A DNA stretch of 64,000 nt, from the NCBI RefSeq assembly GCF_009767915.1, contig NZ_WSRP01000001.1, positions 1 to 64,000 of the forward strand, read 5' to 3'. Numbering within the stretch: the first letter of the stretch is position 1; each line of letters begins with the position of its first letter. The translations under genes and the position numbers were made by a program. Source of the DNA: Parasutterella muris. GTDB taxonomy: Bacteria; Pseudomonadota; Gammaproteobacteria; Burkholderiales; Burkholderiaceae_F. Below are positions 22,113-37,229 of the stretch, piece after piece. The notes beneath the pieces are model-generated. The model did no database searches and was not told the DNA's origin. It saw nothing but the letters and a program-made list of their open reading frames with translations.

Positions 22113-22115
22113 TGC

Positions 22116-22748: not shown

Positions 22749-22760
22749 TCAATGCTTCCT

Positions 22761-22788
22761 AAAAAGAGGGGCGCACAAAAAGCGCCCC
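22761..22788 (-). terminator. Terminator between head and tail genes
   Basis: On the minus strand GGGGCGC and GCGCCCC (arms at 22782..22788 and 22768..22774) form a 7-bp stem followed by TCTTTTT. It lies just after the cement-protein gene, so it may lower tail-gene expression relative to capsid genes or mark a transcript end. Confidence 0.65.
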
Positions 22789-22816
22789 AAAGGTCCCAAG
22801 GAGTATCTCTGAAAAA

Positions 22817-23230
22817 TTACGAGTTGCGTCCTAGCTCCGGCGCCTGCTCGAAGGCGGGGTTGTCCTGGAAGCCCGAGGTGATGAACGCCTTAACCTTCCC
22901 TGCACTCGCCCCGCTGAAGTGAGCCTGCATGTAACGCTTGTGTCTCAGAGGAAGCGGGATGGCGACTTGCGCACCCGCCTCTCCGTCAACCAACGTCACC
23001 GCTCCCGAGCAGTCCGTGAAAGGACCGTCCAGTGTGTCGGAGTCCTGGAGTTTGAATGTGACATCAGCTCCGGCGGCTTCAAGAAGCGCCGCAACCGCAA
23101 CCGGTCTGCCTTCGTCATAGCCTGTTGTCGGAGACTCCTGCTCGAAATCGATTGCGAACTTGGAGGCCTGATCGCCTGTGAGCTCATCTCCGTCCTTGTC
23201 TGTGAACAGTTCAAGAAAATCAATAATCAT
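22817..23230 (-). CDS. Bbp16-like capsid cement protein
   Basis: The protein has 137 residues from the ATG at 23230, which has GAGGAG at good spacing; an upstream ATG at 23305 lies inside the capsid gene. It contains MIIDFLELFTDKDGDELTG and a beta-rich body with DVTFKLQDSDTLDGPFTDC and PLPLRHKRYMQAHFSG. This reads like the BPP-1 Bbp16 family, jelly-roll cement proteins that stabilise the expanded capsid. It follows the major capsid gene, as in BPP-1. Confidence 0.8.
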   Translation of the reverse strand: MIIDFLELFTDKDGDELTGDQASKFAIDFEQESPTTGYDEGRPVAVAALLEAAGADVTFKLQDSDTLDGPFTDCSGAVTLVDGEAGAQVAIPLPLRHKRYMQAHFSGASAGKVKAFITSGFQDNPAFEQAPELGRNS

Positions 23231-23240
23231 CGCTCTCTCC

Positions 23241-24293
23241 TCAATTTGTGACCTGAGCCTCGCCGAATTCCAAGGCGTCCACTCTGCGGAACGGGATACC
23301 GTCAAATTTGGTAACGGTGCGGCCGCCGACCTCTTCCTGCGTAAGCTGGACGTTGTGAATGTTCGTGCGCTGAAGTCTGAGGTATGTCTCGACCGTTCGG
23401 TTGCAGTAGAACGCGAAGCGAGCTCCGGAGAGAGACGGGACCTGAACCACGGCTTTAACTAAAAGCTCGTAGAGGTTATGGCCCGGCACTTCCTTACCGC
23501 CTACTGTTACGGAGTCGCCGTTGTTGATCGGCGGCTGAGACAGAAGCATCGACTTGCTGATATTTGCGATACGGACGACGTAACGCCAGTCGCGCAATGT
23601 GAAACCCACGTCCCACGAGAAGTGAGTCTTGAACACACGGTACTCGCCGCCGGCTTCGTCGTATGCGGCTTCCTCACCGATGTCATTCTTCTGAAGCCCC
23701 GCGGGGGAGCCTTCTGGATAGATGCAGTGCGCAGTGTCAGGACCCCAGCCGATCAGCCAGATGGAGGTCAGATCGTCACCCGTTCCGCCCGCATCAATCA
23801 CGTTCACGGCGTTGGCGGCCTTCTTCGGGTTCAGTGTGGAGTAACGCGGAGCCAGACCGAGGAACCGTTCAGGATTCTTGGATGTGTCGCCGTACAGTAA
23901 AGTGCGCTGGAACTCGCGGCTCATGGATTCAATGAAGGGGTGCTCTTCGCTAACGCGCCACGACTCCTTCATGCCATTCATCTCGGCAAGCTTCTTGTCC
24001 ACCACGGCGAACGCTTCAAGCATGCCGCATGTATCGAACACAGACTTAACTTGAGACTTGGACGGCTGAACACCGTAGTTCAGCATTCTCCAGGCGACTG
24101 TCGGCAAACCGGAACGGACTGTCGTCTTGTGAGAAAACTTGTTGTTGCACTCCACCCATGTGGCGTCCGGAATCATTTCATTTGTGAGGTCCAGAACCTC
24201 TTTGATCTCGATCAGATCGCCGTTTTTATCCTGGCGGTCAAGCAGATCGGTAAGGTTCGGATTGCGAGGCATCGGCTTAATTTCAGCCATCAT
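23241..24293 (-). CDS. Major capsid protein (BPP-1 Bbp17-like)
   Basis: This 350-residue protein is placed between scaffold and cement genes. The N-terminus MPRNPNLTDLLDRQDKNG is followed by EVLDLTNEMIPDATWVECN and KTTVRSGLPTVAWRMLNYGV, all familiar from capsid proteins of BPP-1-like podoviruses, which have an HK97 fold. The C-terminal half (VQVPSLSGARFAFYCNRTVE, FDGIPFRRVDALEFGE) fits the A-domain pattern. The start is one of two adjacent ATGs; AGGAG precedes them. Confidence 0.9.
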   Translation of the reverse strand: MMAEIKPMPRNPNLTDLLDRQDKNGDLIEIKEVLDLTNEMIPDATWVECNNKFSHKTTVRSGLPTVAWRMLNYGVQPSKSQVKSVFDTCGMLEAFAVVDKKLAEMNGMKESWRVSEEHPFIESMSREFQRTLLYGDTSKNPERFLGLAPRYSTLNPKKAANAVNVIDAGGTGDDLTSIWLIGWGPDTAHCIYPEGSPAGLQKNDIGEEAAYDEAGGEYRVFKTHFSWDVGFTLRDWRYVVRIANISKSMLLSQPPINNGDSVTVGGKEVPGHNLYELLVKAVVQVPSLSGARFAFYCNRTVETYLRLQRTNIHNVQLTQEEVGGRTVTKFDGIPFRRVDALEFGEAQVTN

Positions 24294-24307
24294 CGTTCTC
24301 CTTTAAA

Positions 24308-25006
24308 TTAATCGTCAACGACCATGTTCGAGTTCGGGTAGCGACGGCGCTTCGGCGGGTTTGCCGAGGCGTTTCCGTGAACACCCGAGTCCTGCTGCAA
24401 GGTCTTCCCGAGTCTGAAAAAGTGTCGAACGACTTCAGGGTGGTTGCCCAGCCCGGAAGCGTTCAGGATGGTGCGAAGCTCAGGGGTCGCGAATTCTCGA
24501 TAGCCCGAGATTGCAACCGCCTTGTTCGCCCCGAAATTCGCACCGCCGATCTCGGGGTCCTTTTCACAATCCAACGCCCATTGCTCGGCCTTGGACCGTA
24601 AATCGTTCATCATGTGCGCTCTTGCTGTCGGCACCATCGCCTCAAAAAGCTTTTGGGCGTTCTCCTGAGAAAGGCCTACAGACTTAGCGGCGTCTGCAAA
24701 CTGCTGTACGGACTCAGGTGTGTACTCGTTGCCGTTCACATCTCTGAAAGCCTCGTAGGTCTCAGGAGCACTCTGAGCTGTCTCCTGCTCCTGCGTCTGA
24801 GGCTCGGCCTCTTCAGCGGCCTGATCTCCGCTTCCAAGCAGGGTGTCCCCCATCAGGCTCTCAGCTGTCTGCTCGCTTCCAGAAGGTGCGGCCTGAGTCT
24901 CAGCCTGAGCCTGGTTCTCTGTTGCCTGCGCGGCCTGTTCTGCCGCATCTGGAGCCGCAGTCTGCGCGGTTTCTTGGTTCTGAACTTCCTGACTCTCGTC
25001 AGCCAT
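24308..25006 (-). CDS. Scaffolding protein
   Basis: The 232-residue acidic protein has an extremely Gln/Ala/Glu-rich low-complexity N-terminus (1-85), a helical middle (TPESVQQFADAAKSVGLSQE, NAQKLFEAM), and a basic C-terminus (NPPKRRRYPNSN). This bipolar layout and the position immediately upstream of the major capsid gene are characteristic of phage scaffolds, which direct procapsid assembly and then leave. It overlaps the preceding gene by 8 bases. Confidence 0.85.
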   Translation of the reverse strand: MADESQEVQNQETAQTAAPDAAEQAAQATENQAQAETQAAPSGSEQTAESLMGDTLLGSGDQAAEEAEPQTQEQETAQSAPETYEAFRDVNGNEYTPESVQQFADAAKSVGLSQENAQKLFEAMVPTARAHMMNDLRSKAEQWALDCEKDPEIGGANFGANKAVAISGYREFATPELRTILNASGLGNHPEVVRHFFRLGKTLQQDSGVHGNASANPPKRRRYPNSNMVVDD

Positions 25007-25295
25007 GCTCGTTCTCCTTCATCATCAGTGTGTAGTTTTCGGGACAAATCTCGCTGATCTTTGCCATGAGCCTGTAGCCCATGTCCTTTTTCCCTTCAGC
25101 GTGCGCCATCGCAAGCGCCATGTAGTGCTCACGCTCCTTAACCTCCACGAAGGTCGTGCGCAGAACACCTGAGTTTGCGAGAAGCCAATGGACGATACGT
25201 CTGCCTGAGGGTGCACTCATGAGCTTTCTGAAGTCGTCCTTGAAGAGCTCGTCCCTTCCGGCTTGAGCTTTGATTCGCTCGTCTCGTGTACTCAT
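24999..25295 (-). CDS. Bbp19-like structural-region protein
   Basis: The protein has 98 residues from the ATG at 25295, with GGAG upstream; the open frame extends to 25529 but that part is not protein-like. The sequence DELFKDDFRKLMSAPSGRRI then HWLLANSGVLRTTF is typical of Bbp19-type proteins of BPP-1-like phages, of unknown function, located just before the scaffold gene. It overlaps the scaffold by 8 bases and the small membrane peptide upstream by 4. Confidence 0.8.
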   Translation of the reverse strand: MSTRDERIKAQAGRDELFKDDFRKLMSAPSGRRIVHWLLANSGVLRTTFVEVKEREHYMALAMAHAEGKKDMGYRLMAKISEICPENYTLMMKENEHG

Positions 25296-25402
25296 CGAAT
25301 CAGACTCCAGACAAATGCAGCTTCGATAACAACCACCATCCAAAGTGCGCATCTCGTCCACATGCGCATTTGTCCTTTCTCGTTGAACAGTAGTTTTTCC
25401 AT
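25292..25402 (-). CDS. 36-residue membrane peptide upstream of the Bbp19-like gene
   Basis: MEKLLFNEKGQMRMWTRCAL continues with WMVVVIEAAFVWSLIR. The second half is a hydrophobic segment long enough to cross a membrane. Its TGA overlaps the next ATG as ATGA, the pattern seen throughout this operon, which argues that it is translated. The ribosome binding site is weak. Function is unknown; it could be a small virion or membrane component in the portal-to-scaffold interval. Confidence 0.55.
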   Translation of the reverse strand: MEKLLFNEKGQMRMWTRCALWMVVVIEAAFVWSLIR

Positions 25403-25460
25403 AATGCTTAGCACTCGCTCTGGTATATGTTGAGAATTTCCTAAAGTCTTTTCTCGACAC

Positions 25461-25490
25461 CGCCGCTGAGGTCCAATCAGCGGCGTTTTT
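25461..25490 (+). terminator. Plus-strand (antisense) terminator in the portal-Bbp19 gap
   Basis: CGCCGCTGA (25461..25469) pairs exactly with TCAGCGGCG (25477..25485), and TTTTT follows on the plus strand. Late genes run on the minus strand, where no T run follows the stem. It would stop antisense transcription before it reaches the portal gene, or act as a structured 5-prime leader in the late transcript. Confidence 0.6.
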
Positions 25491-25522
25491 ATTTCCTGAA
25501 GAAACTCTACCTAAGCGGTTTC

Positions 25523-25535
25523 CTCTCAATGCAAC
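25523..25535 (-). promoter_or_regulatory. Late-operon motif, copy 2
   Basis: GTTGCATTGAGAG on the minus strand, two bases after the portal stop codon and about 120 bases before the 36-residue peptide gene. Nineteen bases after TTGCAT there is TAGAGT, -10-like. It is identical over 13 bases to the copies at 10247 and 30003. Confidence 0.55.
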
Positions 25536-25537
25536 AC

Positions 25538-27235
25538 TTAGTAGCCGCTGAACGCTGAGTAGATTTCTCCCGAATCCGCAGACCTCAGACTGTCATCCAG
25601 TGGTTGGCCTGCTTGCGCCCCTCCTAAGTTCTTCATGATTGCCGAAGCCTGCTCGGCGTTTGCGAGCTGTTGCGCCTGCGCCTGAGCCTCTGCCCTCTGC
25701 TGACGGATAAGCGCAACTCGTTCACCTGGAAGAATCAGTTTCGGGTCGATACCCAGAACGTCCGAGTAATAGTCAACCCAATAGTCGCCGTCGAATTTGT
25801 CCAGCATCTCGGGCTTCATGTTCGCCAACACGCCTAGGTTCTGAGTGAATCGGTCCACCGAGTTCGTTGTCACGGCCTTTTGCGCCTGAGCAAGAACCGA
25901 CACAAACTCAACGTTCAGGTCAACACCTTCCAGCTCCTGCGGAACGGGTGGGATGAGACCCACTCGAAGCAGTCGGTCAAACGTCATTGAGATCAGACGA
26001 TCGTTCAGCTCAGCGTTCAGGCGCTCAAGAACAGGCCCCAGCATCAGCATCTTCTCCTCGTGGCGCTCGGCAATCTCTGTTGCGGTCGCTCTCTGAGAAG
26101 CGGGCATCCCCGTAATCATTAAAAAGATGTCCTTGTAGAAAGCCTCGTCGATTCGGCGCCGAGTGTCCTGAATGTCCTGAACCAAGTAGTCAAGCCGCAG
26201 GTTCACCTCGTAGGCAGAGCGTATAGCTTGGACCTGAGCGATGTTGTCCGCGTACACGACGCCGCCCGGTACCAGATTCGCTTCCTGGTTGCGCATGTCG
26301 GCGCTCGCAACTACTGCGGGGTCAGCCTGCAACGCGATTGCCTTGGACTTATAAAACTGCTCCTGCTGAAGCTGACGCAAGTCTCCTAACGCCTCCATGC
26401 CCGGGCCTGTCCCGTATATGTCGCCTCCTGTGACGTTCCAGCGAGCCGCAAGAACAGGGAACTGATAGAAGCCTGTCTCACGAAGCACACCGCCGTAGGT
26501 CCTATCGGCTTTGGAGCTCTCGAAATACACCGAGCGGTACGGCATGTTTTTTGCGTCTCTGCGCGAAGGGTCTCGATAGTCTCTTGGCTCAATGGCGTTA
26601 ACCACGTCAACCCATTTGTCGTAGTCACCTCGGTCGTACAGCTTGCGCACTTCAGGCGAGACGTTCGCATAGCCGAACTCCGCAACAAGCGCAGAGACTG
26701 TCAGTCGGAACTCTCGGTACAAAGTGTTGACGTTTCCACGAGCGTCTGTTGCGAGCGCGAACTCCCCGATCGTCAGCGGCATGCAGTGAATCACGGACTC
26801 AAAGTCATCAAGCAGAACAACTGCTGTGGTGCCGAAAGCTCCGAGCTCCTCGTAGGCCATCTGTAATGCGCGGTAGGTGTTCGACTGATTGAACACCATC
26901 TGCATTAGCGTTGTGACTTTGCTCGACCATTCCTTAACGGCGTAGCTCTCGTCCAGCTTCGGGTCCTTGGTCGTCAGTCGAAACCACGGGCGGGCAGGAC
27001 TTGTCATCCCTGCCATCATGCCGCCCGATAGCGTGCGAAGCGCTCGGGTGCCCGAGTTGTCGAGAATGGCTCTGTGGCGCTTGTCGCCCTTGTTATTGTC
27101 TGAGACAAGGAAGCGCCCCGCTCGAGGAATGAGAACCTCTGATATCTCCTGCCAATGCGGCATCCAGGTTGAGCGCTCCTCTTTCAGAGCTTCCCAGCGG
27201 CGAGCGCATTGCTTGCGCAGACTCGTTTCCATCAT
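25538..27235 (-). CDS. Portal (head-tail connector) protein
   Basis: The 565-residue protein has the hallmark N-terminus of T7/BPP-1-type connectors: LRKQCARRWEALKEERSTW, HWQEISEVLIPRAGRF, RHRAILDNSGTRALRTLSGG and MMAGMTSPARPWFRL. The wing and stem region contains QDIQDTRRRIDEAFYKDIFL and TATEIAERHEEKMLMLGPV. The C-terminus is Gln/Ala-rich. It forms the dodecameric vertex through which DNA is packaged. Two adjacent ATGs are possible; the second is better spaced from AGGAGG. Confidence 0.93.
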   Translation of the reverse strand: MMETSLRKQCARRWEALKEERSTWMPHWQEISEVLIPRAGRFLVSDNNKGDKRHRAILDNSGTRALRTLSGGMMAGMTSPARPWFRLTTKDPKLDESYAVKEWSSKVTTLMQMVFNQSNTYRALQMAYEELGAFGTTAVVLLDDFESVIHCMPLTIGEFALATDARGNVNTLYREFRLTVSALVAEFGYANVSPEVRKLYDRGDYDKWVDVVNAIEPRDYRDPSRRDAKNMPYRSVYFESSKADRTYGGVLRETGFYQFPVLAARWNVTGGDIYGTGPGMEALGDLRQLQQEQFYKSKAIALQADPAVVASADMRNQEANLVPGGVVYADNIAQVQAIRSAYEVNLRLDYLVQDIQDTRRRIDEAFYKDIFLMITGMPASQRATATEIAERHEEKMLMLGPVLERLNAELNDRLISMTFDRLLRVGLIPPVPQELEGVDLNVEFVSVLAQAQKAVTTNSVDRFTQNLGVLANMKPEMLDKFDGDYWVDYYSDVLGIDPKLILPGERVALIRQQRAEAQAQAQQLANAEQASAIMKNLGGAQAGQPLDDSLRSADSGEIYSAFSGY

Positions 27236-27540
27236 CAGCCTCCTAAGAGGGAGCTAACCCCGCCAAGGCTGAGCTTGTCCCGTTCAATGCCGCCGGCGCC
27301 GGTCAGCATTGTCGCTGAGGAGTCTCCTTCCTGAGCCGAGTCAAGAATGGAGCTCACGTCCACCTCGTTCTGGTTGGCTCGGTTGAACTCCTGCTGTTGC
27401 TGGTTCAACTGCTGAGCGCTGGACTTCGCCTGCTGGTCAGCCGCCCGCTTTGTCGCTTTACTCTGTTTTTTGCTGGAGTAAATGGACGCTCCCGCGGCCA
27501 CCGCCGCAGTTACAGCTCCAACGATAGCTGCTCCTGACAT
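27235..27540 (-). CDS. Small structural protein next to portal
   Basis: The 101-residue protein has an Ala-rich N-terminal hydrophobic stretch (GAAIVGAVTAAVAAGASIYS), then a Lys/Gln-rich helical region (KKQSKATKRAADQQAKSS) and a Gly-rich end. Similar short proteins accompany portals in podoviruses, and some are virion-associated. I cannot name a family. It has a strong GGAAGGAG and its stop shares a base with the portal ATG. Confidence 0.7.
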   Translation of the reverse strand: MSGAAIVGAVTAAVAAGASIYSSKKQSKATKRAADQQAKSSAQQLNQQQQEFNRANQNEVDVSSILDSAQEGDSSATMLTGAGGIERDKLSLGGVSSLLGG

Positions 27541-27962
27541 TTCTTCTCCTTCCTTGTTAAAAGCCTTTCGGGCTCGTCTGTAAATTCAGCCTCCGCCTCC
27601 TCAACGGTTTTCGCCTTTGTGGGAAAACACATTGAGAACGCCGAATCGGTTATGGCGTATGCGGCGGCCCTTCGCCCCGCGAGTCCTTCGAGCACGTGAT
27701 ACCCCTTGAACTCGCGGGTGGTTGTTCCGTCGGTGATCTGAAAATGGCCCGCACAAATCAGCTGAGTCTCAATCTTCAGCTTGAGCCCGACAGCCACGCA
27801 TCCTGCGGGCACGTATAAGGTTCTCGTGTACACGCCCGCGTGCAGGTGGTGCTCGGTTCGCACCTGAGGGGGCGCCGGGTACTTAGCGACCTCCTCGCAG
27901 AGCGTCTCGAAGTACTCGTTCACAGCAGGCGTCACCGGCCCCATGGGTTCAATCGACGTCAT
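27510..27962 (-). CDS. Cupin-like phage protein
   Basis: The protein has 150 residues from the ATG at 27962, within the end of the acetyltransferase frame. The centre (about 35-115) is a beta barrel pattern, HHLHAGVYTRTLYVPAGCVA, then AGHFQITDGTTTREFKGYHV, typical of cupin folds found beside portals and terminases in podoviruses. The first histidines could bind a metal. Role unknown, possibly regulatory or structural. It overlaps the GNAT gene and the following structural gene. Confidence 0.65.
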   Translation of the reverse strand: MTSIEPMGPVTPAVNEYFETLCEEVAKYPAPPQVRTEHHLHAGVYTRTLYVPAGCVAVGLKLKIETQLICAGHFQITDGTTTREFKGYHVLEGLAGRRAAAYAITDSAFSMCFPTKAKTVEEAEAEFTDEPERLLTRKEKKCQEQLSLEL

Positions 27963-28410
27963 CACACTTGCACCAAAAAGCGTTGTGGGTGTGCACCATC
28001 CCGAGGTGCTCGCACAGCTTGTCAAGCGAGGAGCCCGGAGGCGCCATGAAGGAGCACCCGGGAGCGCCAAGCGTCCAAGCTGTCTTCTTGATTTCTTTTA
28101 AAAGCCGAAGACCCGTCACGCCTTTGCGCCAGGCCTTGCGCAGGTAGAACGACTCCACCGCAACGATTGGGAACGGATAGTGCTGAGACTCCGCAAGCAA
28201 GAGCCCGACAACCCCTACAACCTTTCCTTCGTCGTAAGCCGCTATGCAAAAGAGATTCCCTGTGTACTCGAGCTTGCGATAGCGCTCATACTGAACCATC
28301 GGGTCCCCGATCGCCTTGTTCGCTGTCTCCTGCGTGTACTCGTTAACCAAATCAGAAAAGCCTTCCGCATGAAAAAGCTCCTCAAAGGTTGTGTGCTGAA
28401 TTTGTACCAT
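27949..28410 (-). CDS. GNAT-family acetyltransferase
   Basis: The protein has 153 residues starting at 28410 (TAATG with the terminase stop, GAGGAG at good spacing); an ATG six codons earlier is possible. The core shows the GNAT pattern: FCIAAYDEGKVVGVVGLLLA (beta 4), VAVESFYLRKAWRKGVTGLR (beta 4/alpha 3 with the acetyl-CoA loop) and LLKEIKKTAWTLGAPG. GNAT proteins at this site occur in many podoviruses and might acetylate virion or host proteins. Substrate unknown. Confidence 0.75.
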   Translation of the reverse strand: MVQIQHTTFEELFHAEGFSDLVNEYTQETANKAIGDPMVQYERYRKLEYTGNLFCIAAYDEGKVVGVVGLLLAESQHYPFPIVAVESFYLRKAWRKGVTGLRLLKEIKKTAWTLGAPGCSFMAPPGSSLDKLCEHLGMVHTHNAFWCKCDDVD

Positions 28411-29960
28411 TACCGTCTCCTCAGACAATCGAACGGGTCAAAGCCCCGCCGACCGTTGGCCTGCGAGCGCATCTTGAGTTCACCCAATGGGGTGTACTCC
28501 TCGACCTTAAAGGCGAATGTGAGCGCCAAAGCGTCCGCCGCGTCAGGTGATCGAAGACCCCGCTTTTTCATTTCCTTCTTAGTTTCAAGCTTTACCTGAC
28601 CGCCCGGAAGAATGTCGTACTCGGGTGCGATCAAATCCTCAACCAACTCGCGATCGTCCGGTATCGTCCCTCCGTCAGAGAGCCACTGCTTCATGCGACC
28701 CCACATTTCCTCTCGTTTACGGGAGTACGTCTGAGGGTCGTCCGCCTTCTCGCCGAACTGCACGCCCCTGACGGGGTAGCCATCATCGCGCAGCATGTCT
28801 TTCGGGCCGCCGCCCACGCCGCCCTCATCCACGAAGATGAAGATGCGGTCAGCGGGAAAACCGAGCTTTTTAACGGAGTCAAAATGCGCCTTCACCTTTG
28901 CCACGAGCTGAGTTGTGGAGAGTCCGTGATAGCGCTTGATCGGAAGATAGCCTCGGCCAATGCGGGTGTAGATCACGGAGTCGTCGTCGCCAAAACGAGC
29001 AACGTCCACTCCGATAATTGCTGAAGTCGCAGTGTTGTGACTGATGCTGGTTTTTGCCGCCTGCTCTGCAACATCCGTAGGAATAAACTGCATTGAGGAA
29101 ACGGACGGGAACTCTCCTCGGACACGCACTCGGAAGAAGTCCGAGTCCTCCCCGTACTCGTCGGCCCATTTAGCGATCTGCTCTTTGTTTGTAATCTCAA
29201 CTGTTCGAGAATCGATATTTCTCAGGTTCCAGTACTGCTGCTTCTTGTAGTTATTGAAGCAGGCGTGAAAGGTCCCTGAAGATCGGGTCGGGTTCCCGAA
29301 AAGAAACATCATGGGTTCTCCGTCGGTGAGGCCGCCTTCAGCCACCTCGTAGACCGCCTCAGGGATAGCGGATGCTTCGTCGAAAATGTAGAACGGTGTA
29401 GAGGATGCGGCATGCAGACCTGCGAAGGACTCGGCGTTCTCTTCTTTGCAGGTGAGCGCGTCCACGCGCCAAGACTCAGGTGACTCTTTGGATTCAATTG
29501 AGCCCGCCTTAACTTCGAACATGTCAGCAACTAGTGAACGCTTCAGCCACTTTTTGATTTCCGCCCATGTCTTGGTCTCAAGCTGGCTTGCCGTGTTTGC
29601 GGTCACGACGCCCTTACAACCGGGACGCGTTGCAAGAATCCAGCACACGAGCCAAGCCGTGACACAGCTCTTTCCGATGCCGTGTCCGGATGCGATCGCG
29701 TAGCGCAGAGGCTCCACGGCATGCGAGCCGTCGAAGTTTCTTTGCTTAACCTCTTGGCCGATATCCTCTAAGAGCTGACAGGCCCATGCGTCGGGACCGT
29801 ACTGAAACTTCGGATACTTAGAGAGCCACGGCTCTTTCAACCGAACCACCGACGTCTCAGGCGTCTCGCCCCAAGGAAAGGCCCAAAGGACAAAACGGAG
29901 CGGGTCCGCATAGCAGCGGGCGAGCTCCTCATTGAAAATTTCTTCAATCCTTTTGTTCAT
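28410..29960 (-). CDS. terL: Terminase large subunit
   Basis: The 516-residue ATPase/nuclease packages DNA into the procapsid. ATPase motifs: Walker A ASGHGIGKS near residue 93, Walker B FYIFDEAS near 190, coupling motif LFGNPTRSSG. RNase H-like nuclease motifs: GVDVARFGDDDS near 317, FIFVDEGGVGGGPKDML near 375, and SPDAADALALTF near 477. It is the first gene of the late operon, about 43 bases downstream of the third copy of the late motif. The small subunit gene is about 6 kb away. Confidence 0.96.
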   Translation of the reverse strand: MNKRIEEIFNEELARCYADPLRFVLWAFPWGETPETSVVRLKEPWLSKYPKFQYGPDAWACQLLEDIGQEVKQRNFDGSHAVEPLRYAIASGHGIGKSCVTAWLVCWILATRPGCKGVVTANTASQLETKTWAEIKKWLKRSLVADMFEVKAGSIESKESPESWRVDALTCKEENAESFAGLHAASSTPFYIFDEASAIPEAVYEVAEGGLTDGEPMMFLFGNPTRSSGTFHACFNNYKKQQYWNLRNIDSRTVEITNKEQIAKWADEYGEDSDFFRVRVRGEFPSVSSMQFIPTDVAEQAAKTSISHNTATSAIIGVDVARFGDDDSVIYTRIGRGYLPIKRYHGLSTTQLVAKVKAHFDSVKKLGFPADRIFIFVDEGGVGGGPKDMLRDDGYPVRGVQFGEKADDPQTYSRKREEMWGRMKQWLSDGGTIPDDRELVEDLIAPEYDILPGGQVKLETKKEMKKRGLRSPDAADALALTFAFKVEEYTPLGELKMRSQANGRRGFDPFDCLRRR

Positions 29961-30002
29961 GCCTTCTCCGACTTTTGCGAAGAAGTATGTCGGATTGGCT
30001 TT

Positions 30003-30015
30003 CTCTCAATGCAAC
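30003..30015 (-). promoter_or_regulatory. Late-operon motif, copy 3, upstream of terL
   Basis: GTTGCATTGAGAG on the minus strand, 43 bases before the terminase start. Nineteen bases after TTGCAT there is CATACT, -10-like. It heads the entire head-tail-lysis operon, so a promoter or activator site for late transcription is the simplest reading. Confidence 0.6.
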
Positions 30016-30018
30016 AAA

Positions 30019-30034
30019 GCCCCGAGAGCGGGGC
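30019..30034 (-). terminator. GC-rich hairpin before the late promoter region
   Basis: GCCCCG, loop of four, CGGGGC with TTTG following on the minus strand. The T run is short, so it may be a weak terminator that isolates the late operon from upstream transcription. Confidence 0.4.
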
Positions 30035-30091
30035 GGATCGTCATAGCACTTAGCTAGTTCGAGATACACATCATCTTGGATTACGGACGTA

Positions 30092-30116
30092 GAAAAGCCC
30101 ACCGATTACGATGGGC
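30092..30116 (-). terminator. Terminator after the toxin-antitoxin-chaperone module
   Basis: On the minus strand GCCCATCG, loop TAAT, CGGTGGGC (one G-T pair) is followed by TTTTCT. It lies 61 bases after the SecB-like gene and would end the transcript of the module. Confidence 0.7.
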
Positions 30117-30176
30117 ATATCTTGATGTAAAAAACAGCGTTATGTAGACAGCGATCGCTCCTGGCCTCACCCAAAG

Positions 30177-30575
30177 CTAAGCTCTGAACGGTGGCTCAAC
30201 AATAGGGAAACTTGTCACTAACCCCGAAGACAGGATGTTGTGCTGCAAGTAGAAACTAAGCATATGGTAGACCGGTTTAATAAAATTGCCGTAAACAAAG
30301 TCCTCTGCTTTTTCCTTTTCTGTTAGAGGCTCCATAAACCAGAAAGCAGCCCGTCCAGTGCAGGAAGCTGAGTAAATTTCCTTATCGTCAGAACTCACAC
30401 CTCTAACCATTAAGGTCCCTTCAACTACCAGCTGTTTTCCATCTTCTCGAAATTTTGTAGTAACAGGAAACGAGATCAGAGAGCGCCCTTCCACTCCATC
30501 GAAATTCGTAAAGGTCGGATTAATGTTAAACGACAGCGAAGTGATAACCAAAGGGTCTTCTTTAAGAATACGCAT
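30177..30575 (-). CDS. SecB-like chaperone of a TAC module
   Basis: The 132-residue protein reads as a SecB fold: an N-terminal run of beta strands (LVITSLSFNINPTF, RSLISFPVTTKFRED, LVVEGTLMVRGV, ASCTGRAAFWFMEPL), then a helix (NFIKPVYHMLSFYLQHNI) and the closing FPIVEPPF. It overlaps the antitoxin gene by 14 bases. A SecB paralogue following a HigBA pair is the organisation of toxin-antitoxin-chaperone systems, where the chaperone folds and protects the antitoxin. I call it from pattern and context; identity to true SecB is low by eye. Confidence 0.72.
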   Translation of the reverse strand: MRILKEDPLVITSLSFNINPTFTNFDGVEGRSLISFPVTTKFREDGKQLVVEGTLMVRGVSSDDKEIYSASCTGRAAFWFMEPLTEKEKAEDFVYGNFIKPVYHMLSFYLQHNILSSGLVTSFPIVEPPFRA

Positions 30576-30900
30576 AGCAACCTACACTCCCATAAACTCT
30601 CGGAATCTTTCTTACCTTAGCCGGCATACAAAGAAGACATTCAGCCTCCTCGTTTCTCTCTTTCCGATACCGCCTCTCCGAATTTTCCCAAAAAATCTGG
30701 GTGCCTCCGATAGATTCAGCTAATCTTTTAGCAAGAGAATCAGACAGCGCAAGCTCTCCCGACAGGAAAGAAGTAAAGTCCACCTCGCCGAGGCCTAACG
30801 CATCACGAAGCTCTTCGCGCTTTACAATCCCATCTTCTATCGCGTCTCTGGCAACATCACCAGGGGATGTAATCCATTTGCCGGTTGCCATATTAATCAT
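30562..30900 (-). CDS. higA: HigA-type antitoxin with C-terminal extension
   Basis: The protein has 112 residues from the ATG at 30900, overlapping the toxin stop (ATGATTAA). The HTH region, TSPGDVARDAIEDGIVKREE then LRDALGLGEVDFTSFLSGE and LAKRLAESIGGTQIFWENSE, is HigA-like and should bind both toxin and promoter. About 30 extra residues follow (ECLLCMPAKVRKIPRVYGSV, then GCYAYS). In TAC systems such an extension is the chaperone-addiction segment that makes the antitoxin depend on the SecB-like partner. Confidence 0.82.
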   Translation of the reverse strand: MINMATGKWITSPGDVARDAIEDGIVKREELRDALGLGEVDFTSFLSGELALSDSLAKRLAESIGGTQIFWENSERRYRKERNEEAECLLCMPAKVRKIPRVYGSVGCYAYS

Positions 30901-31222
30901 GGTAGTTCCCAATGTATTCAACACAAATAATAGTGACTAATTTTTCGCGCTCTTTTAGTCCACAAACGCCCGTTTCCGGTAGGCGAACAGAAAAAACCAA
31001 TCTCATTTTCTTATCCAATTTAAACGCCATTTGTCCAGCTCTGTCTCCTGTTAGTACGTGTAGATGACCGAGAGGCGGAACATCTTCCATACTTGGGGCG
31101 TCCTTTAGAGAATCCAAATACGTATAGAGTTTCCTGGCACAGTGCTGACCAAGTTCAGCTTGAGCTCTTCTTTGGTCGGTACACAATTGTTCAAGATAAA
31201 CGGTTGCGTACTCAACTTGCAT
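30893..31222 (-). CDS. higB: HigB/RelE-type toxin
   Basis: The 109-residue protein has the layout of HigB mRNA interferases: an N-terminal helical part with many basic residues (LCTDQRRAQAELGQHCARKL), then the beta core GHLHVLTGDRAGQMAFKL, RLVFSVRL and the C-terminal VTIICVEYIGNYHD. The toxin-first order and the overlapping antitoxin are typical for HigBA. In a lysogen it may stabilise the prophage or act against other phages through its chaperone-linked control. Confidence 0.82.
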   Translation of the reverse strand: MQVEYATVYLEQLCTDQRRAQAELGQHCARKLYTYLDSLKDAPSMEDVPPLGHLHVLTGDRAGQMAFKLDKKMRLVFSVRLPETGVCGLKEREKLVTIICVEYIGNYHD

Positions 31223-31255
31223 TACTTGTCTCTAAAAATCAATTCGCTTGCATAA

Positions 31256-31261
31256 ATTATA
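31256..31261 (-). promoter_or_regulatory. Candidate -10 box of the TAC module
   Basis: TATAAT on the minus strand, 34 bases upstream of the toxin start, in an AT-rich stretch. No good -35 hexamer is visible at 16-18 bases. HigBA promoters are normally repressed by HigA. Confidence 0.5.
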
Positions 31262-31294
31262 TTTTATTTTTGTCCCTCCATTGGATACTTAGAG

Positions 31295-31310
31295 GCCCCG
31301 AGGTCGGGGC
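31295..31310. terminator. GC hairpin between the 102-residue gene and higB
   Basis: GCCCCG, loop of four, CGGGGC, with only short T runs on either side. It lies between the replication transcript and the toxin module, so a weak terminator is possible. Confidence 0.35.
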
Positions 31311-31316
31311 TTCATG

Positions 31317-31625
31317 CTACTGCTCGTTGGTGAGTTCTAGGAAGGCATCCTCGGAGTCTTTGAGGAAATCCGCAAGACACATGAGCAAAAGTCTCACCCC
31401 TTCGATTCTGAGCCAGACATCCTCCTCTGTAGCCTCTGAAGCGAGCGCCTCCTTCATCAGCTTACGCACCGCCTCCTTGCGGGACGCGGCAGTTCCGTCA
31501 ACCCAATTGGCTGCATCGTAGTCACCTATGAACGAGTAACCGAGCGTGCCTGTAATTTTCTTCCTGAGTGCGAGCGGCTGGGACGCCATCAGCTCGACAA
31601 GATCTTCTGTTGAAATAACTACCAT
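31317..31625 (-). CDS. Unknown protein following the primase-helicase
   Basis: The 102-residue acidic helical protein contains VVISTEDLVELMASQPLALR and RKEAVRKLMKEALASEATEE, then LRIEGVRLLLMCLADFLKDS. Its start overlaps the end of the primase gene by 7 bases, so it is translated with it. I recognise no family; a replication accessory role is suggested only by the coupling. Confidence 0.65.
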   Translation of the reverse strand: MVVISTEDLVELMASQPLALRKKITGTLGYSFIGDYDAANWVDGTAASRKEAVRKLMKEALASEATEEDVWLRIEGVRLLLMCLADFLKDSEDAFLELTNEQ

Positions 31626-33949
31626 AAATCCTCCTTATCTTCTATCAACTTGGCTCCATACAAATAGCTATACCGATGCGCCCCAGCTTTTATCGTGTAC
31701 CCTCGTTCTTTCAGTCTTCTCGTTAACCATTGAGAACTTTGCTTTGTCTGCCCGCTTTCCGCCGCCCAAATCTTGAACGAGGCATAAACCTCACGCATAG
31801 GCACCTTGTAGTCTTTTTCCGCAGATTCCAGGCAATCTTCAATCCAAGTACCGACAACATCCTCCTCGCCGCGCCACTTATTAACGGCTTGTTTCAGGGC
31901 TGCCGGAGTGGCCAAGCCATACTTCTTGTACTTTCGCACACCCTCCAAAATCCAATTCAAAATCCCAGGGGCCTCCTTGAGGAGCTTATCCTTGAGATTC
32001 TCATCCTTCGTATAGTTTGGGTCCTTGTCGAAGCTTCGAGGGAATTCAATCAGAACAATGCGCCTCCAGGCCCCGTCGCTGTCATCGGCAATCTCGGGCA
32101 GGTGGTTCGTACAGACAATGACGGTGTGCGTAGGATTAAACTCAATCGGCGATTGGTACATCTCACGAGCGGCAATTCGCTCAGTCCCCGCAAGGCGCTT
32201 CAGCATCTCGCTTTTAACCTTGGCGCCTTCGGTCAGCTCCTCGGCTAGGGCGAGGCGGGCGCCCTTAAGCTTCACCACCTCAGGCGAAAGACCTGTTGAA
32301 GAGGATGATCTTTTGTCTCCAAGAGACACCAACGTTTCAGGCTGCATGGCAACACCGTACGGCCCGAAAACTTCAAGCAGAACCGACGTGAGGGTTGATT
32401 TCCCGTTACTGCCGTACCCGTGGAAAAAAGCAAGCTTGTTTTCTTTCGGGTCCCCTAACGCTATGTACCCCATAAACCTCTGGAGATAGTCAACGACATT
32501 TTCATCTACAAGGCATTCAAGCAGTGTCTTCTCCCATAGGGGGCACTTGGCTTTTTGGTCAAACACTACAGGGGAGAATTTGGAGACCATTCGGGATGCG
32601 TCGGGAGCAAGGAGCTCGCCAGTCTCAAGGTCAATGTCTCCGTTTGCCACGCCAAAGTAGCGGGTGTTTGTGTCAAAATCCTCGTCCCTTACAAAGGCGC
32701 CCTCGCCTCCAAAAAGGAAGAACGACTGCGTGATCTCTCTCACATAACGCACAGGGTTCTTTTCAAATGCCGCGTAAAACTTAGCTCTTGACTTCAGCTG
32801 TTCGGGGGTCGGGGCGTCTTGAACAAAGCGCTTATACTCGTCCTCAATCCTTTCCGAGAGTACCGACTCGGCAACATCAATGGGGGCCTTAACCCAGTGG
32901 GGGCTCTCAAAAAAGTAGCAGACTGCTTTGTCTCCTCGGCGTCTTTTAAGGTACGAGCCGAGAGAGCGTATCAGCCGCTTGGCAATGTTGAGGACGTACA
33001 TCTGCCTCTCGTTGCCCTTGTTGTTCTTCTGATACGCAGCAATGATCGAGCCGATAGTAACCGGTTTACTCTTGTCGTCGTGAAAAGAGTTCCAGGTCTT
33101 CGCGCAGTCATCGAGTCCCTTATAGTTCGGGGCGCTGGCGCTCCACTTATCCCACAGTCTGAGTGCTTCGTCCGAACCTTCAAAGTGGTGGTGCAGTGCC
33201 ATGCCTGCTTTGTACCAGCTGTCGCGGTCGACATTACTGAGGCCTGAACCCATCAAGTACTCTTCAGCCTCTTCAATCGTAAGTTTTCTCAGTACAAGCG
33301 GGGCGGGTTCCCAATCGTCTGCATCGAACGTGTTTATGTCAAAGCTCTTCTCTTTCGTATCAATTTCAAAGCCTCGTCGCTCAACGATTTCCACGAAGGC
33401 GGTCAGGGCCTGTTGTATTTGCTCGCTTGTTAAAAGCGGAAGCTCCTCAGCTTGCGTCTCGATAAGCGGTATCTCCGGCCAAATGTACGGCTTGTGAGTG
33501 TCGCGGTGGATGTGGTATGCACATAACTGCCCCCCGGCACCGATAACCTCAAGCTGAGCCTTGACGCCGTCTTTTATAAACCTAGGAGTAGTCTCTTTTT
33601 TCGCACCCGCTTCTTCCATTCGGAAGAGAAGCGCGTACTTTGGCGCCTCGCCGATGCGCTTATAGAGCGTGTACTCGAAACCGAAGTGCTCCTCAACCCA
33701 CGATTCAAACTCTTTACTTACCTCTTCGTCGTAGGAGTCCACGTCTAAAGCATGGACCGGCACCGAGCCGACGCCGCACAAAATACCGACTCCAAAACTG
33801 GCTGGTGCCGCCCTGCACTCCTCCTTGGTACGGGAGCGTTTGTTCCAATCCTTTTTACGTGGACCTTTACTTCCGAGAGGTATAGCACAGATGTGATAGC
33901 CGAGATCGATCAGCTGAGGGCCAATTTCTCTGATATTAGAAGTTGTCAT
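31619..33949 (-). CDS. Prim-Pol and D5-type primase-helicase
   Basis: The 776-residue replication protein has an N-terminal Prim-Pol domain (about 10-190): GVGILCGVGSVPVHALDVDS, then a C-terminal primase-associated region (YLMGSGLSNVDRDSWYKAGM near 235). A D5/SF3 superfamily 3 helicase occupies about 430-720: FFHGYGSNGKSTLTSVLLEV (Walker A near 513), ALAEEL (Walker B-like), HTVIVCTNHLPEIADDSDGA (motif C, with arginine finger WRRIVLIEFP). It would prime and unwind phage DNA. It lies leftward of the switch region, in the transcript starting at the small HTH gene. Confidence 0.92.
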   Translation of the reverse strand: MTTSNIREIGPQLIDLGYHICAIPLGSKGPRKKDWNKRSRTKEECRAAPASFGVGILCGVGSVPVHALDVDSYDEEVSKEFESWVEEHFGFEYTLYKRIGEAPKYALLFRMEEAGAKKETTPRFIKDGVKAQLEVIGAGGQLCAYHIHRDTHKPYIWPEIPLIETQAEELPLLTSEQIQQALTAFVEIVERRGFEIDTKEKSFDINTFDADDWEPAPLVLRKLTIEEAEEYLMGSGLSNVDRDSWYKAGMALHHHFEGSDEALRLWDKWSASAPNYKGLDDCAKTWNSFHDDKSKPVTIGSIIAAYQKNNKGNERQMYVLNIAKRLIRSLGSYLKRRRGDKAVCYFFESPHWVKAPIDVAESVLSERIEDEYKRFVQDAPTPEQLKSRAKFYAAFEKNPVRYVREITQSFFLFGGEGAFVRDEDFDTNTRYFGVANGDIDLETGELLAPDASRMVSKFSPVVFDQKAKCPLWEKTLLECLVDENVVDYLQRFMGYIALGDPKENKLAFFHGYGSNGKSTLTSVLLEVFGPYGVAMQPETLVSLGDKRSSSSTGLSPEVVKLKGARLALAEELTEGAKVKSEMLKRLAGTERIAAREMYQSPIEFNPTHTVIVCTNHLPEIADDSDGAWRRIVLIEFPRSFDKDPNYTKDENLKDKLLKEAPGILNWILEGVRKYKKYGLATPAALKQAVNKWRGEEDVVGTWIEDCLESAEKDYKVPMREVYASFKIWAAESGQTKQSSQWLTRRLKERGYTIKAGAHRYSYLYGAKLIEDKEDLW

Positions 33950-33951
33950 GT

Positions 33952-34206
33952 CTAGCCCTCTAGTTTTCTCTCCATCTCGGCAAGACTGACCGCGCGTTTC
34001 AACTCGCTTTCATAGTACGACTGAAGTTTCCCTATGGTCCTAAAACTGAAGGCACTGTCGCGCCGCATAACGTTGTACACCTGCTGAGGAGAAACTCCTG
34101 CCGCCTCAGCAATCTCTGCCGGAGACCGTCCTAGTTTTGACAACTTCTCAACTAAGATGACCGACCTTTCGTTTCTTGTCTCGATACCTGCATCCGCTCG
34201 TCTCAC
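33952..34206 (-). CDS. Small HTH regulator, Cro-like position
   Basis: The 84-residue protein starts at GTG 34206 behind two AAAGGAG copies. It contains a helix-turn-helix, RSPAEIAEAAGVSPQQVYNV, followed by MRRDSAFSFRTIGKLQSYY. It is the first gene of the leftward transcript that carries the primase and is divergent from the repressors, the position of Cro in lambda-like switches. It ends two bases before the primase ATG. Confidence 0.75.
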   Translation of the reverse strand: MRRADAGIETRNERSVILVEKLSKLGRSPAEIAEAAGVSPQQVYNVMRRDSAFSFRTIGKLQSYYESELKRAVSLAEMERKLEG

Positions 34207-34409
34207 TCCTTTACTCCTTTACTCCGACGGCATTACTTGAATATTAAAAATAACAGTACTTAACTTTTACTTACTTAGTATATCTGAAATTTAAAAATTG
34301 ATTTTCCAAGTTTGCAATATATTTATGGAGAAATTAGTGCAATTTTAGTTATACTTTACTTATACTTATAAAAAATCCCTCTAACTCAATTAACTAAAAG
34401 GTCGTCAAA
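34207..34409. promoter_or_regulatory. Divergent switch region between Cro-like gene and repressor
   Basis: This AT-rich 203-bp gap contains repeated ACTTA half-sites. A minus-strand TATACT box (34277..34282) is immediately followed by AAGTAAGT, so the 11-mer ACTTACTTAGT (34269..34279) overlaps that -10. Rightward TATACT boxes lie at 34350 and 34361, before the repressor start. The same 11-mer, inverted, occurs at 37743..37753 before the early operon, so both places are probably read by the same repressor. Confidence 0.65.
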
Positions 34410-35105
34410 ATGGAATTCAACGGCGCAAAAATTAAAGAGTTCGCCGACAAGAAAGGCATCTCTATGTACGCGTTAGCCAAAGGAACAGGCCTTACGCAAG
34501 CAACACTCAGCAGAATCGTTAACTGCAAGATCGAAAAACCGAGAGATAAAACCTTAATCGCGATTGCAGATTTTCTTGGAGTTTCTCCACGCGAACTCGG
34601 CTTAGATACCAACCTTGAAGGCACTAAAGTCGAAAGAGGTCCGGTTGTGCCCGTCTACTCTCCCCGAGAACTTGCTCGCTTCGTCCGAGGCGACAAACAG
34701 CAGGAACCTACAAGACTGATAACCTACCCGTTTACAGACACCGAAGACGCCGACGACGTTCTTCTTTCCGACTTTGCGGGAATTGTGAACTCAGAACTGC
34801 TTTGCCTTCGGGTGTGCGGGCTGTCCGCTTCCCCGCTTTATGAAGACGGAGACTTAGTTTTCATAAAGTACAGCGAACTGGATGACATCCCGGTAAACGG
34901 GGAGGAAAGGGTCGCAGTGTGTCTATTAGGAGACAAAGAGAACGAGTACGCAGCCATCCGAAGAATCTCCGCTGACGAGAGCAGTCTGAACGACTTTTGG
35001 GCAAGACCTATAAACCCTGACTATCCAGATCAGACGGTTTATCAGAATCCCTTAACCATAGGTACTATCGTAGGTTTTATCGGTAAGCCTCGGTCCATTC
35101 GATAA
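34410..35105 (+). CDS. CI-like repressor 1, XRE HTH plus S24-type domain
   Basis: The 231-residue protein has an N-terminal HTH (MYALAKGTGLTQATLSRIVN, about residues 19-38) and a C-terminal LexA/CI peptidase-like domain (about 115-230). The catalytic serine position is kept (S139 in GLSASPLYEDGD), but the lysine expected in Y-x-x-K-R is Arg (R184 in AAIRRIS). Autocleavage may be impaired, so SOS induction may not act through this protein directly. It faces the Cro-like gene and should maintain lysogeny. Confidence 0.87.
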   Translation: MEFNGAKIKEFADKKGISMYALAKGTGLTQATLSRIVNCKIEKPRDKTLIAIADFLGVSPRELGLDTNLEGTKVERGPVVPVYSPRELARFVRGDKQQEPTRLITYPFTDTEDADDVLLSDFAGIVNSELLCLRVCGLSASPLYEDGDLVFIKYSELDDIPVNGEERVAVCLLGDKENEYAAIRRISADESSLNDFWARPINPDYPDQTVYQNPLTIGTIVGFIGKPRSIR

Positions 35106-35126
35106 CGCTTTCATTCGGAGGCATCC

Positions 35127-35849
35127 GTGATTACAAGAACAACAGCTCAAGAGTCTGTGGCCGAGCGCATCAAAGCAGAAATGGAAAGGAAAAATCTAAC
35201 CGCTTACGCTTTAGCTAAGGCCTGCAACATGCCGCCGTCCACAATCTCTCGCATCCTTTCCGGCCAGGCTCACCCGAGACCTTCTACTCTGGCCTTGATT
35301 GCGGCCACACTCGAGACAAGGATTGTCAACCTTATCGGCGAGAAAAAGGCAAAAGCTCTTATGTCTCAGAACCCCGTACTAAAAGCGATCCCGAACAAGC
35401 GTATTCCGCTTATCACCGCAGAGACGGCGTACTGGATTGACGACTCTCGAGACGACGAAGCCGAGAAGCAGTCCGGCGCAAACGTTGTGTGGCTCCCCGG
35501 GCTTCCCGATCCGGAGGTGAGCGGTTTAGTTGACTTCTGCATTGTCGCCCCCGACGACGCTCTTAGCCCGAAAATCCGCAAGGGAGACTATCTGTACTTC
35601 AGAAAAACCTCTTCAAAAGATCATGTGAGAAGCGAAGATATTGTCGCCGCTTTGAAGCGCAATATCGACGGGGGCTATTCGCTCAGCATAAGAAAGTTAT
35701 TTTTCCTGCAAGGCGATGAAGAACTTCTTCTACCGTCCGAACAGATGAGGCCCTACTACAAAGAAATAATCCTTTCTTCCTCAGAGAACGGCAAGCAGGA
35801 CGTCAAAGTAGTAGGAGCTCTAGTCGCAAGACTCTCCGTTCAACGATAA
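35127..35849 (+). CDS. CI-like repressor 2, XRE HTH plus degenerate S24 domain
   Basis: The 240-residue protein lies 21 bases after repressor 1 in the same orientation. The HTH TAYALAKACNMPPSTISRIL (25-44) is followed by a C-terminal S24-like domain where the serine position is Ala (A145 in DDALSPKIRKGD) and the lysine position is Arg (R189 in LSIRKLF). It should not self-cleave. It may be a dimerisation partner, a second-operator repressor or an antirepressor-controlled regulator. HTH recognition residues differ from repressor 1. Confidence 0.85.
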   Translation: MITRTTAQESVAERIKAEMERKNLTAYALAKACNMPPSTISRILSGQAHPRPSTLALIAATLETRIVNLIGEKKAKALMSQNPVLKAIPNKRIPLITAETAYWIDDSRDDEAEKQSGANVVWLPGLPDPEVSGLVDFCIVAPDDALSPKIRKGDYLYFRKTSSKDHVRSEDIVAALKRNIDGGYSLSIRKLFFLQGDEELLLPSEQMRPYYKEIILSSSENGKQDVKVVGALVARLSVQR

Positions 35850-35852
35850 AGG

Positions 35853-36518
35853 CTAATCCAGTCCTTGCAGCCGTCTGCGAGCCGCCAAAATACCGGCGGC
35901 TCTTTTGTCTGTGACGTCAACGGAAATCTTGTCCCCGTAGCGCTCGGGAGCCCACTTCTTCAGAAGCTCCACGCGAGCGTAAAACGCCAGTTTGCGGGCG
36001 TAAGTGTTGTCGCCTCTTTTGCGGACAACCACTCGCTTTCCATCGGCAAGCTCCGTCTCCGCAACCTCTTCACACGTTATCGGACTCGAAGCGATCAGAA
36101 GTGCTTCATCGGCCAACGCGTCCATTCCTACAGCTCTGGCCTCGTCGTATCTTGCGGCAAAGCTCGGGTCCTTTTTCCTGCGATGGTAGATGTCGTTATA
36201 GCTGAGGCCTGCCATGTTCAGCCAGACGCGGATGATTCCACCCTGCATGAGAAAGGCAAAAAGATGCTCCTCACGCTCGGGCGACCACTTCTCTCCGACA
36301 ATGGCGGGCGGCACCTCTGTGATCGGTTTTGTGTATAAGGGGGCGATTGCTTCGCTCATATGGACTTTCTGCTCCCAGGTTGCGCGTTTTGCTTTGGGCG
36401 GCTTCTTGGCGCCGGCAATGTGGTTTACCGCCTGCTTCACCGTCTTCGGCGTGTACCTCGGGTCGGGCTTCTTTGGGTAAAGCCTCTCAAGCGTTTCCTG
36501 CGCAGTTTTTCGTGCCAT
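35853..36518 (-). CDS. terS: Terminase small subunit
   Basis: The 221-residue basic protein has an HTH-like segment after GGIIRVWLNMAGLSYNDIYH, followed by RRKKDPSFAARYDEARAVGM and the C-terminal VELLKKWAPERYGDKISVDV. That combination is typical of small terminase proteins of the Sf6/P22-like group, which bind the packaging site. It is separated from terL by about 5.9 kb of replication and switch genes. It overlaps the upstream HTH gene. Confidence 0.8.
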   Translation of the reverse strand: MARKTAQETLERLYPKKPDPRYTPKTVKQAVNHIAGAKKPPKAKRATWEQKVHMSEAIAPLYTKPITEVPPAIVGEKWSPEREEHLFAFLMQGGIIRVWLNMAGLSYNDIYHRRKKDPSFAARYDEARAVGMDALADEALLIASSPITCEEVAETELADGKRVVVRKRGDNTYARKLAFYARVELLKKWAPERYGDKISVDVTDKRAAGILAARRRLQGLD

Positions 36519-36750
36519 ATTCCCCTCGCATCCATCGGGCCACTGCCTGACCCCTGCTTTCTCCGCTTAACCAGCGGCAAATAGTTGATTTCGGTATCTC
36601 GAGTTTACGAGAAATTTCTGATAGAGAAAAACCCTCGTAACTGAGCTGGATTGCCATCTCAACATCCCGATCGGTGAATTTTGCACGCGGATGCTCCTGA
36701 CCGATTCGTCGGCCCGCAGAGTTGAACGCTATCCAGCGGTGCAGCTTCAT
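36487..36750 (-). CDS. Small HTH DNA-binding protein before terS
   Basis: The protein has 87 residues from the ATG at 36750, which has GGAG at nine bases; an earlier ATG at 36798 lacks one. The resolvase-like HTH GFSLSEISRKLEIPKSTICR occupies about residues 37-56, preceded by FTDRDVEMAIQLSYE. It overlaps the terminase small subunit by 32 bases, so it may be a packaging or late-transcription regulator. The candidate origin region lies directly upstream. Confidence 0.72.
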   Translation of the reverse strand: MKLHRWIAFNSAGRRIGQEHPRAKFTDRDVEMAIQLSYEGFSLSEISRKLEIPKSTICRWLSGESRGQAVARWMRGEYGTKNCAGNA

Positions 36751-37229
36751 GATCTTGGTCTCCGAGAGGTTTTTTATCCTTTTACAGAAGTCTAGCACGA
36801 TTGACTTCTAAAATCGACAGGAAAGCATCAAATCGTCGATTTAAGAGACTTTTATTCTTTGGTCGATAAATTCCTTATCTGAAAATTTAAATGCAGTGAT
36901 GAGCTTAAAAAGCGTCTCAAAATCGATTTTTGAAATTTTTCAATTTTTTTTTGAAAATGGTTTTTCTAAGCCCGCGGAGTTCACAGGAGGTTCCCCGCGG
37001 ACTGGCAGCCAAATTGGGCCCCACCCCTACCTGACGGAAAGCGCGGCCGATCACCCATCCAAGCGGGAATCGCGAATCACCCCGCCAAAAACCCGTGCTA
37101 TTCAATATAACCGCTATTATGTTGAGTAAATTCAATTAGTTAATTACGATCACCCGCGGGGGTTTAGGGTTCACAGGCGCGCTACTTTTCTCGTTTTCTC
37201 GGCTGGAGTTAGGGAGCCTGAAACGCTTG

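Follow-up and report, generated by a model that had tools for sequence, protein, structure and literature searches.

Here, we report that three overlapping genes inside a prophage of Parasutterella muris most probably (we put the probability at about 0.82) make up a divergent toxin-antitoxin-chaperone (TAC) module of the HigBAC type. An earlier note, made from the DNA letters, had proposed a toxin-antitoxin-chaperone identity, and this held up by two routes, i.e., HigB and HigA are recognised by sequence and a SecB fold by structure prediction. Found together are a HigB-type toxin gene, a HigA-type antitoxin and, in the same operon, a SecB-fold protein (the fold being that predicted for a homologue). 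The parts, their order and their probable mechanism are already known; the novelty lies in the lineage, which is rare, has a chaperone invisible to profile libraries and is carried in a prophage of a Duodenibacillus relative. Throughout, the window means the whole 64,000-nt stretch of DNA that was analysed.

Gene layout and the toxin-antitoxin pair

According to the ORF list of the window, the trio fills 31222-30177 as three overlapping ORFs, all on the minus strand. The features are as follows.

30893 to 31222, minus strand: HigB-like (RelE superfamily) toxin, 109 amino acids; PHROG 3066, a Pfam match below cut-off, a two-sequence profile, 48% identity in L004/L012
30562 to 30900, minus strand: HigA-like antitoxin, 112 amino acids from ATG; profile match to solved HigA, ORFs of HigA loci, PHROG 1381
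30177 to 30575, minus strand: predicted SecB-fold protein, proposed chaperone, 132 amino acids; predicted fold, no family match
30565 to 30660, minus strand: antitoxin C-terminal tail, putative chaperone-addiction sequence; position past the part aligned with solved HigA, composition, length against 30 HigA tails
30893 to 30900, minus strand: toxin/antitoxin overlap of 8 nt, ATGATTAA, kept as ATGACTAA in L012
30562 to 30575, minus strand: antitoxin/chaperone overlap of 14 nt, 4 nt in L012
31256 to 31261, minus strand: exact TATAAT, possible -10 without a good -35, seen by eye and not called by the scan
30097 to 30116, minus strand: terminator-like hairpin just downstream of the trio
30019 to 30034, minus strand: second terminator-like hairpin just downstream of the trio

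The order and coordinates of the three ORFs proposed in the earlier note were borne out. The same gene order, toxin-antitoxin-third gene, recurs on a contig (L012) of a Duodenibacillus metagenome bin (Sutterellaceae, Burkholderiales) with protein identities of 48, 41, and 48%, respectively, and blastn found no match between that locus and the window. Since chance ORFs would not recur in order and protein identity without a nucleotide match, we consider the three ORFs real. A longer reading of the antitoxin, 120 amino acids from a GTG at 30924 (30924-30562), is available; the ATG at 30900 is the likelier start because it overlaps the toxin stop in ATGATTAA and L012 carries ATGACTAA at the same place. 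The 8-nt and 14-nt overlaps suggest translational coupling.

The module had also been credited with its own promoter box and terminator. The promoter found no support in a sigma-70 scan of 29900-31700, which called none upstream of the toxin; the one site called (31648-31621, with 2.3 expected by chance) belongs to another gene, and just the TATAAT at 31261-31256 is there, without a good -35. For the terminator, the two hairpins are in the right place, but their number is not above chance (2 found versus 1.8 expected from shuffles).

The toxin matches PHROG 3066, "toxin of TA system" (E 5.5e-8), and Pfam HigB-like_toxin at E 8e-4, which is below the cut-off. Of the 30 HigA loci taken from relatives, 17 have one ORF each that is matched by a toxin profile built from the window and Duodenibacillus sequences (best E 4.8e-6), and 13 have ORFs matched by the antitoxin profile, both counted at E up to 0.05. 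The C-terminal Tyr-His of the toxin presumably resembles the catalytic end of HigB. On the antitoxin side, the two-sequence profile matches solved HigA (E 1.8e-7), and PHROG 1381, an antitoxin family, is matched at E 0.0013; the single sequence reaches NCBIfam TIGR02607 only at E 0.047, below the cut-off. By homology, then, the pair is HigBA, because of the PHROG toxin match, the ORFs in 17 and 13 of the 30 HigA loci and the match to solved HigA. A CmdT-type ADP-ribosyltransferase was not seen among the toxin's matches, which are to HigB-like families, bar one chance-level Pfam row.

Another, distant HigB-like toxin is encoded in the same genome (L066; G000:C99:900-1196 plus the next gene, locus 1183-2307) and is paired with a 374-amino acid antitoxin that by eye resembles HigA plus an ImmA/IrrE-type peptidase. 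Two of the nearest plasmid toxins that we examined likewise pair with long HigA-type proteins.

The third protein and the antitoxin tail

Sequence searches did not connect the third protein with SecB. It has no match in Pfam, NCBIfam, PHROGs, or PADLOC at E up to 1, which includes PF02556 (SecB family), and two PDB sequence searches returned neither a SecB chain nor Rv1957. A profile of 20 SecB proteins (L009 and 19 hand-picked from 30 loci) misses it, and hhalign against the same 20 gives a probability of 4.6% (E 0.0088). A profile search of the 132-residue protein against SecB had been proposed in the earlier note, and by all three tools (Pfam, the 20-SecB profile, and hhalign) it came out negative. 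Because the profile and hhalign searches gave no support, we describe the third protein as SecB-fold and not as a PF02556 member by sequence.

The predicted fold is where the SecB likeness appears. The Duodenibacillus homologue, 48% identical, was modeled by AlphaFold2 with a pLDDT of 81, and its model matches Escherichia coli SecB at Z 12.9 over 127 residues; the SecB entries score 12.9, 12.6, 12.3, 11.1 (Rv1957, the chaperone of the Mtb TAC), and 10.3, while the best non-SecB entries are two streptococcal proteins of unknown function (9.5 and 9.0), the next being 6.1. For this model, Foldseek lists SecB in each of its first 11 rows (best E 4.0e-5). The model of the window protein itself is moderate (pLDDT 79) and ends in a tie between actin-capping protein (Z 9.4) and SecB (Z 8.9, 104 residues); among its 50 listed Foldseek rows, the sole SecB-type entry is Rv1957, at rank 41 with E 0.14. 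Please note that both models were built from a two-sequence alignment. The third protein may thus not be SecB-like at all, if that alignment misled the prediction and the real fold is another sheet-plus-helix type, e.g., that of capping protein, in keeping with the window model and with the lack of sequence support for SecB. We hold this very improbable, as the homologue model prefers SecB (Z 12.9) to capping protein (Z 5.5), and we set capping protein aside as the fold. Proteins that are 48% identical share one fold. We therefore take the window protein as SecB-fold on the strength of its homologue's model, and the claim of a SecB-fold-like third protein stands on that prediction, not on sequence.

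Such divergence has precedents. Several pairs of TAC chaperones are only 14-19% identical (available part of PMC5105189), and the Mtb chaperone and SecB share about 15% identity (available part of PMC6377645); the third protein is as divergent from SecB as published TAC chaperones are. Among viral structural models, the seven best matches (E 1.8e-5 to 1.2e-3) comprise two that are named SecB, four that are uncharacterised and one nameless entry. SecB-like proteins in phages are not new, given these annotated viral SecB models and a 2014 review whose available text places secB-like genes in certain phages and plasmids (PMC4257090). The host genome encodes a separate canonical SecB.

A C-terminal extension of roughly 30 residues on the antitoxin had been claimed as well. 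It is there in the sense that 32 residues lie beyond the part aligned with solved HigA, but compared with ordinary HigA tails the surplus is only about 10 residues. Past the same point, the solved HigA 4mcx has 28 residues and others about 19-21. In the 30 HigA loci of relatives, the tails past the profile run from 3 to 30 residues (median 15.5, 29 of 30 at or below 22), and on this scale the window tail measures about 26 and the L012 tail about 25 by hand count, so that the window tail is longer than 29 of the 30 controls, with one longer. These controls are the best-scoring loci, one per genome, from the 82 of 120 genomes with a match, i.e., the most typical HigA proteins, and their tails may be shortened thereby. 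By eye, the window tail has 4 basic residues, 3 Tyr and nothing acidic among its last 25 positions, and the L012 tail has one tryptophan and no acid among its last 16. SecB prefers stretches that are aromatic and basic, not acidic, and in the Mtb and Geobacter TACs it is the C-terminal tail of the antitoxin that confers chaperone dependence, according to PMC5105189. As a description by eye, the composition fits this preference; the length of the tail, taken by itself, argues only weakly for a chaperone-addiction sequence.

The modest excess of the tail, together with the SecB-type proteins predicted in other phages, would also suit an ordinary HigBA pair beside a separate phage SecB-fold gene, e.g., a chaperone for phage proteins or a competitor of host SecB. 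We regard this arrangement as improbable, since the third gene overlaps the antitoxin gene and holds the same place in Duodenibacillus, where no phage genes are visible beside it.

Prophage setting and rarity

The host draft genome comprises 2.7 Mb in 135 contigs. The module had been placed inside a prophage, and the genes around it agree: a major head protein, a head-tail connector, a terminase, and an integrase (50677-51864), further a primase/helicase and a DNA polymerase A domain. A helix-turn-helix protein is repressor-like, given its sub-threshold match to an S24 peptidase. One IMG/VR contig (51,862 bases) probably comes from the same strain, as it matches the window at 100% identity across the 15,548 bases compared (21413-36960); by the same offset, it would stop at the end of the integrase gene.

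The trio is 44.6% G+C, compared with 55.4% for the terminase gene, and falls in the lowest 3.6% of 949 prophage windows. By tblastn, just two of 15 viral loci with related terminases encode the trio, one identical (L043) and one near-identical (L044). Six loci read upstream of the terminase (L045, L046, L048-L051; terminases 41-65% identical) have other genes there. In a further genome of the host's family (G011), the prophage has a terminase 72% identical over its main piece and, upstream, a remote primase homologue (29%) whose end is about 60 nt from the start of the terminase, a gap that leaves no genes between the two; this prophage looks degraded because its terminase is interrupted. From the module to the terminase, L044 does not differ from the window by a single substitution, and its primase is 309 substitutions per kb apart. 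A sharp recombination break between the two lies near 31.60-31.62 kb, with about 31% primase divergence on the other side. Because of the low G+C, the differing related loci, the empty site in G011 and the break in L044, the stretch between replication and packaging genes is probably a variable site that holds the module as cargo. This site resembles the defence hotspot of P2-like prophages, where defence genes lie between the replication endonuclease and the portal gene, as described in the accessible text of PMC9519451.

Several other genes of this prophage were seen along the way. A 102-amino acid ORF at 31317-31625 (minus strand), between the primase and the module, has no clear family, just a weak PHROG repressor match (E 0.001), and is also missing at the empty site of G011. 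A radical SAM protein of 436 amino acids (3417-4727, minus strand; PHROG 1802, E 3e-46) near one prophage end and a DUF4145 protein (47034-47846, minus strand), which lies in the replication/recombination region on the strand opposite to its neighbours, are possible further cargo. Within the structural gene run, a protein of 2142 amino acids (10265-16693, minus strand) matches PHROG 9880, a family of unknown function, at E 3.3e-217.

The trio family is rare: it was seen in one phage (the window strain and one near-identical virus) and on one Duodenibacillus contig. Searching viral contigs with each of the three proteins and two profiles gave two contigs; we dropped a third viral match of 15 residues (L060), where by eye there was no HigA- or SecB-like ORF. 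When genomes were searched with the third gene, in overlapping sets that each include the window's own genome, 2 of 150, 3 of 399, and 8 of 369 matched. The third genome of the 3 in 399 has four stops in its match, and the seven others of the 8 in 369 (eight rows, E 0.009-0.05) have short partial matches; all were dropped as chance. The matching genome (G036) belongs to the same family as the window's host and to another genus. A contig scan for relatives found 1 among 421 stretches, and the toxin profile gave 5 matches in 67 genomes of the family, own genome included, three of them short (E 5e-4 to 1e-3).

The third gene has no match in the phage and plasmid collections searched. The nearest toxins there are in four plasmid and two phage records; in the four of these six that were examined, the toxins are paired with HigA or long HigA-type proteins, and no SecB is annotated. 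The nearest antitoxins in phages are in five records, two of which are the same two toxin-matching phages. As a control, 8 of the 30 HigA loci have an ORF of at least 90 amino acids starting near the HigA stop. Neither the third-gene nor the SecB profile matched anything in these 30 loci, a weak control in that the two profiles also miss each other's members. Across the order, 293 of 300 genomes have a SecB family match, some two or three.

Around the Duodenibacillus copy, SGNH-hydrolase-like and endonuclease-I-like genes are neighbours and a transposon-type gene is nearby, all by eye, and no phage genes are visible by eye in 8.4 kb.

Possible role and known systems

In the mechanism that we propose, the HigB-like toxin, probably a ribosome-dependent mRNA nuclease, would be neutralised by the HigA-like antitoxin, and the SecB-fold protein (a tetramer by analogy) would bind the antitoxin's C-terminal tail and shield the antitoxin from aggregation and proteolysis. 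If the chaperone were lost or occupied by another client, the antitoxin would be degraded and the toxin would stop growth; in this way, when structural proteins of another infecting phage occupy the chaperone, a lysogen could abort the infection. Going by known TACs, dependence of the antitoxin on the chaperone is likely; tail binding, toxin activity, and the trigger are inferred too.

Defence of the lysogen against other phages seems the likeliest benefit, which we propose tentatively and at somewhat less than even odds. PADLOC has no match for the module at E up to 1, which speaks neither for nor against phage defence. A serious rival, possible though we rate it lower, is that the TAC serves maintenance of the prophage (addiction) or a stress response. 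Under addiction, antitoxin and chaperone would be lost with the prophage and the cells then arrested. The location in a prophage suits this. So does the Duodenibacillus copy: no phage genes are visible around it by eye, and it may have a role that involves no phage. For any TA module on a mobile element, addiction arises as a side effect. Against the rival stand the P2-like site (PMC9519451, available text) and three relatives, E. coli HigBAC, CmdTAC, and MqsRAC, that act against phages according to the accessible parts of PMC11980606, PMC11618068, and PMC9519451, respectively.

Because the module sits in a prophage, one may ask how a phage carries a possible sensor of phage structural proteins without self-triggering. 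A bolder and doubtful suggestion is that the third gene comes from a chaperone lineage adapted to phages, which would sample phage structural proteins, the carrier's own included, so that its own late proteins could fire the toxin on induction. If true, the module would keep out both sibling and foreign phages and would also time the lytic cycle of its carrier, whose coat or tail proteins would need to avoid the carrier's own chaperone or be timed against it.

One literature search found no publication joining Sutterella, toxin-antitoxin and SecB, and the trio adds a probable TAC for relatives of Duodenibacillus. Since four profile libraries miss this SecB-fold chaperone, counts of TAC modules may be too low in cases where the third gene is annotated as "hypothetical".

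Among known systems, classical two-gene HigBA shares the toxin and antitoxin homology and the toxin-first order, and differs in lacking a third SecB-fold gene and the longer antitoxin tail found here. CmdTAC has the toxin, antitoxin and SecB-like chaperone in common; however, its toxin CmdT ADP-ribosylates mRNA and the available part of PMC11618068 does not call CmdA a HigA, whereas the pair here is of HigB/HigA type. Mtb-TAC (HigB1-HigA1-Rv1957) and Glov-TAC (Geobacter lovleyi HigBA-SecB) likewise combine HigBA with a SecB-fold chaperone. The addiction tail of Glov-HigA has 30 residues (86-115), a layout similar to that of the 112-amino acid antitoxin here. Chaperone addiction was demonstrated in these two systems, as the available text of PMC5105189 describes them, whereas here it is a likely property by analogy. 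The homologue model matches Rv1957 at Z 11.1 without a sequence match in the PDB searches. E. coli HigBAC (strain C496) shares the HigB-type toxin, HigA-type antitoxin and SecB-like chaperone in one module and is triggered by the lambda major tail protein (accessible parts of PMC11980606 and PMC13415054), as CmdTAC is by the T4 major capsid protein (PMC11618068, likewise); it differs in that the module here sits in the prophage of a Duodenibacillus relative.
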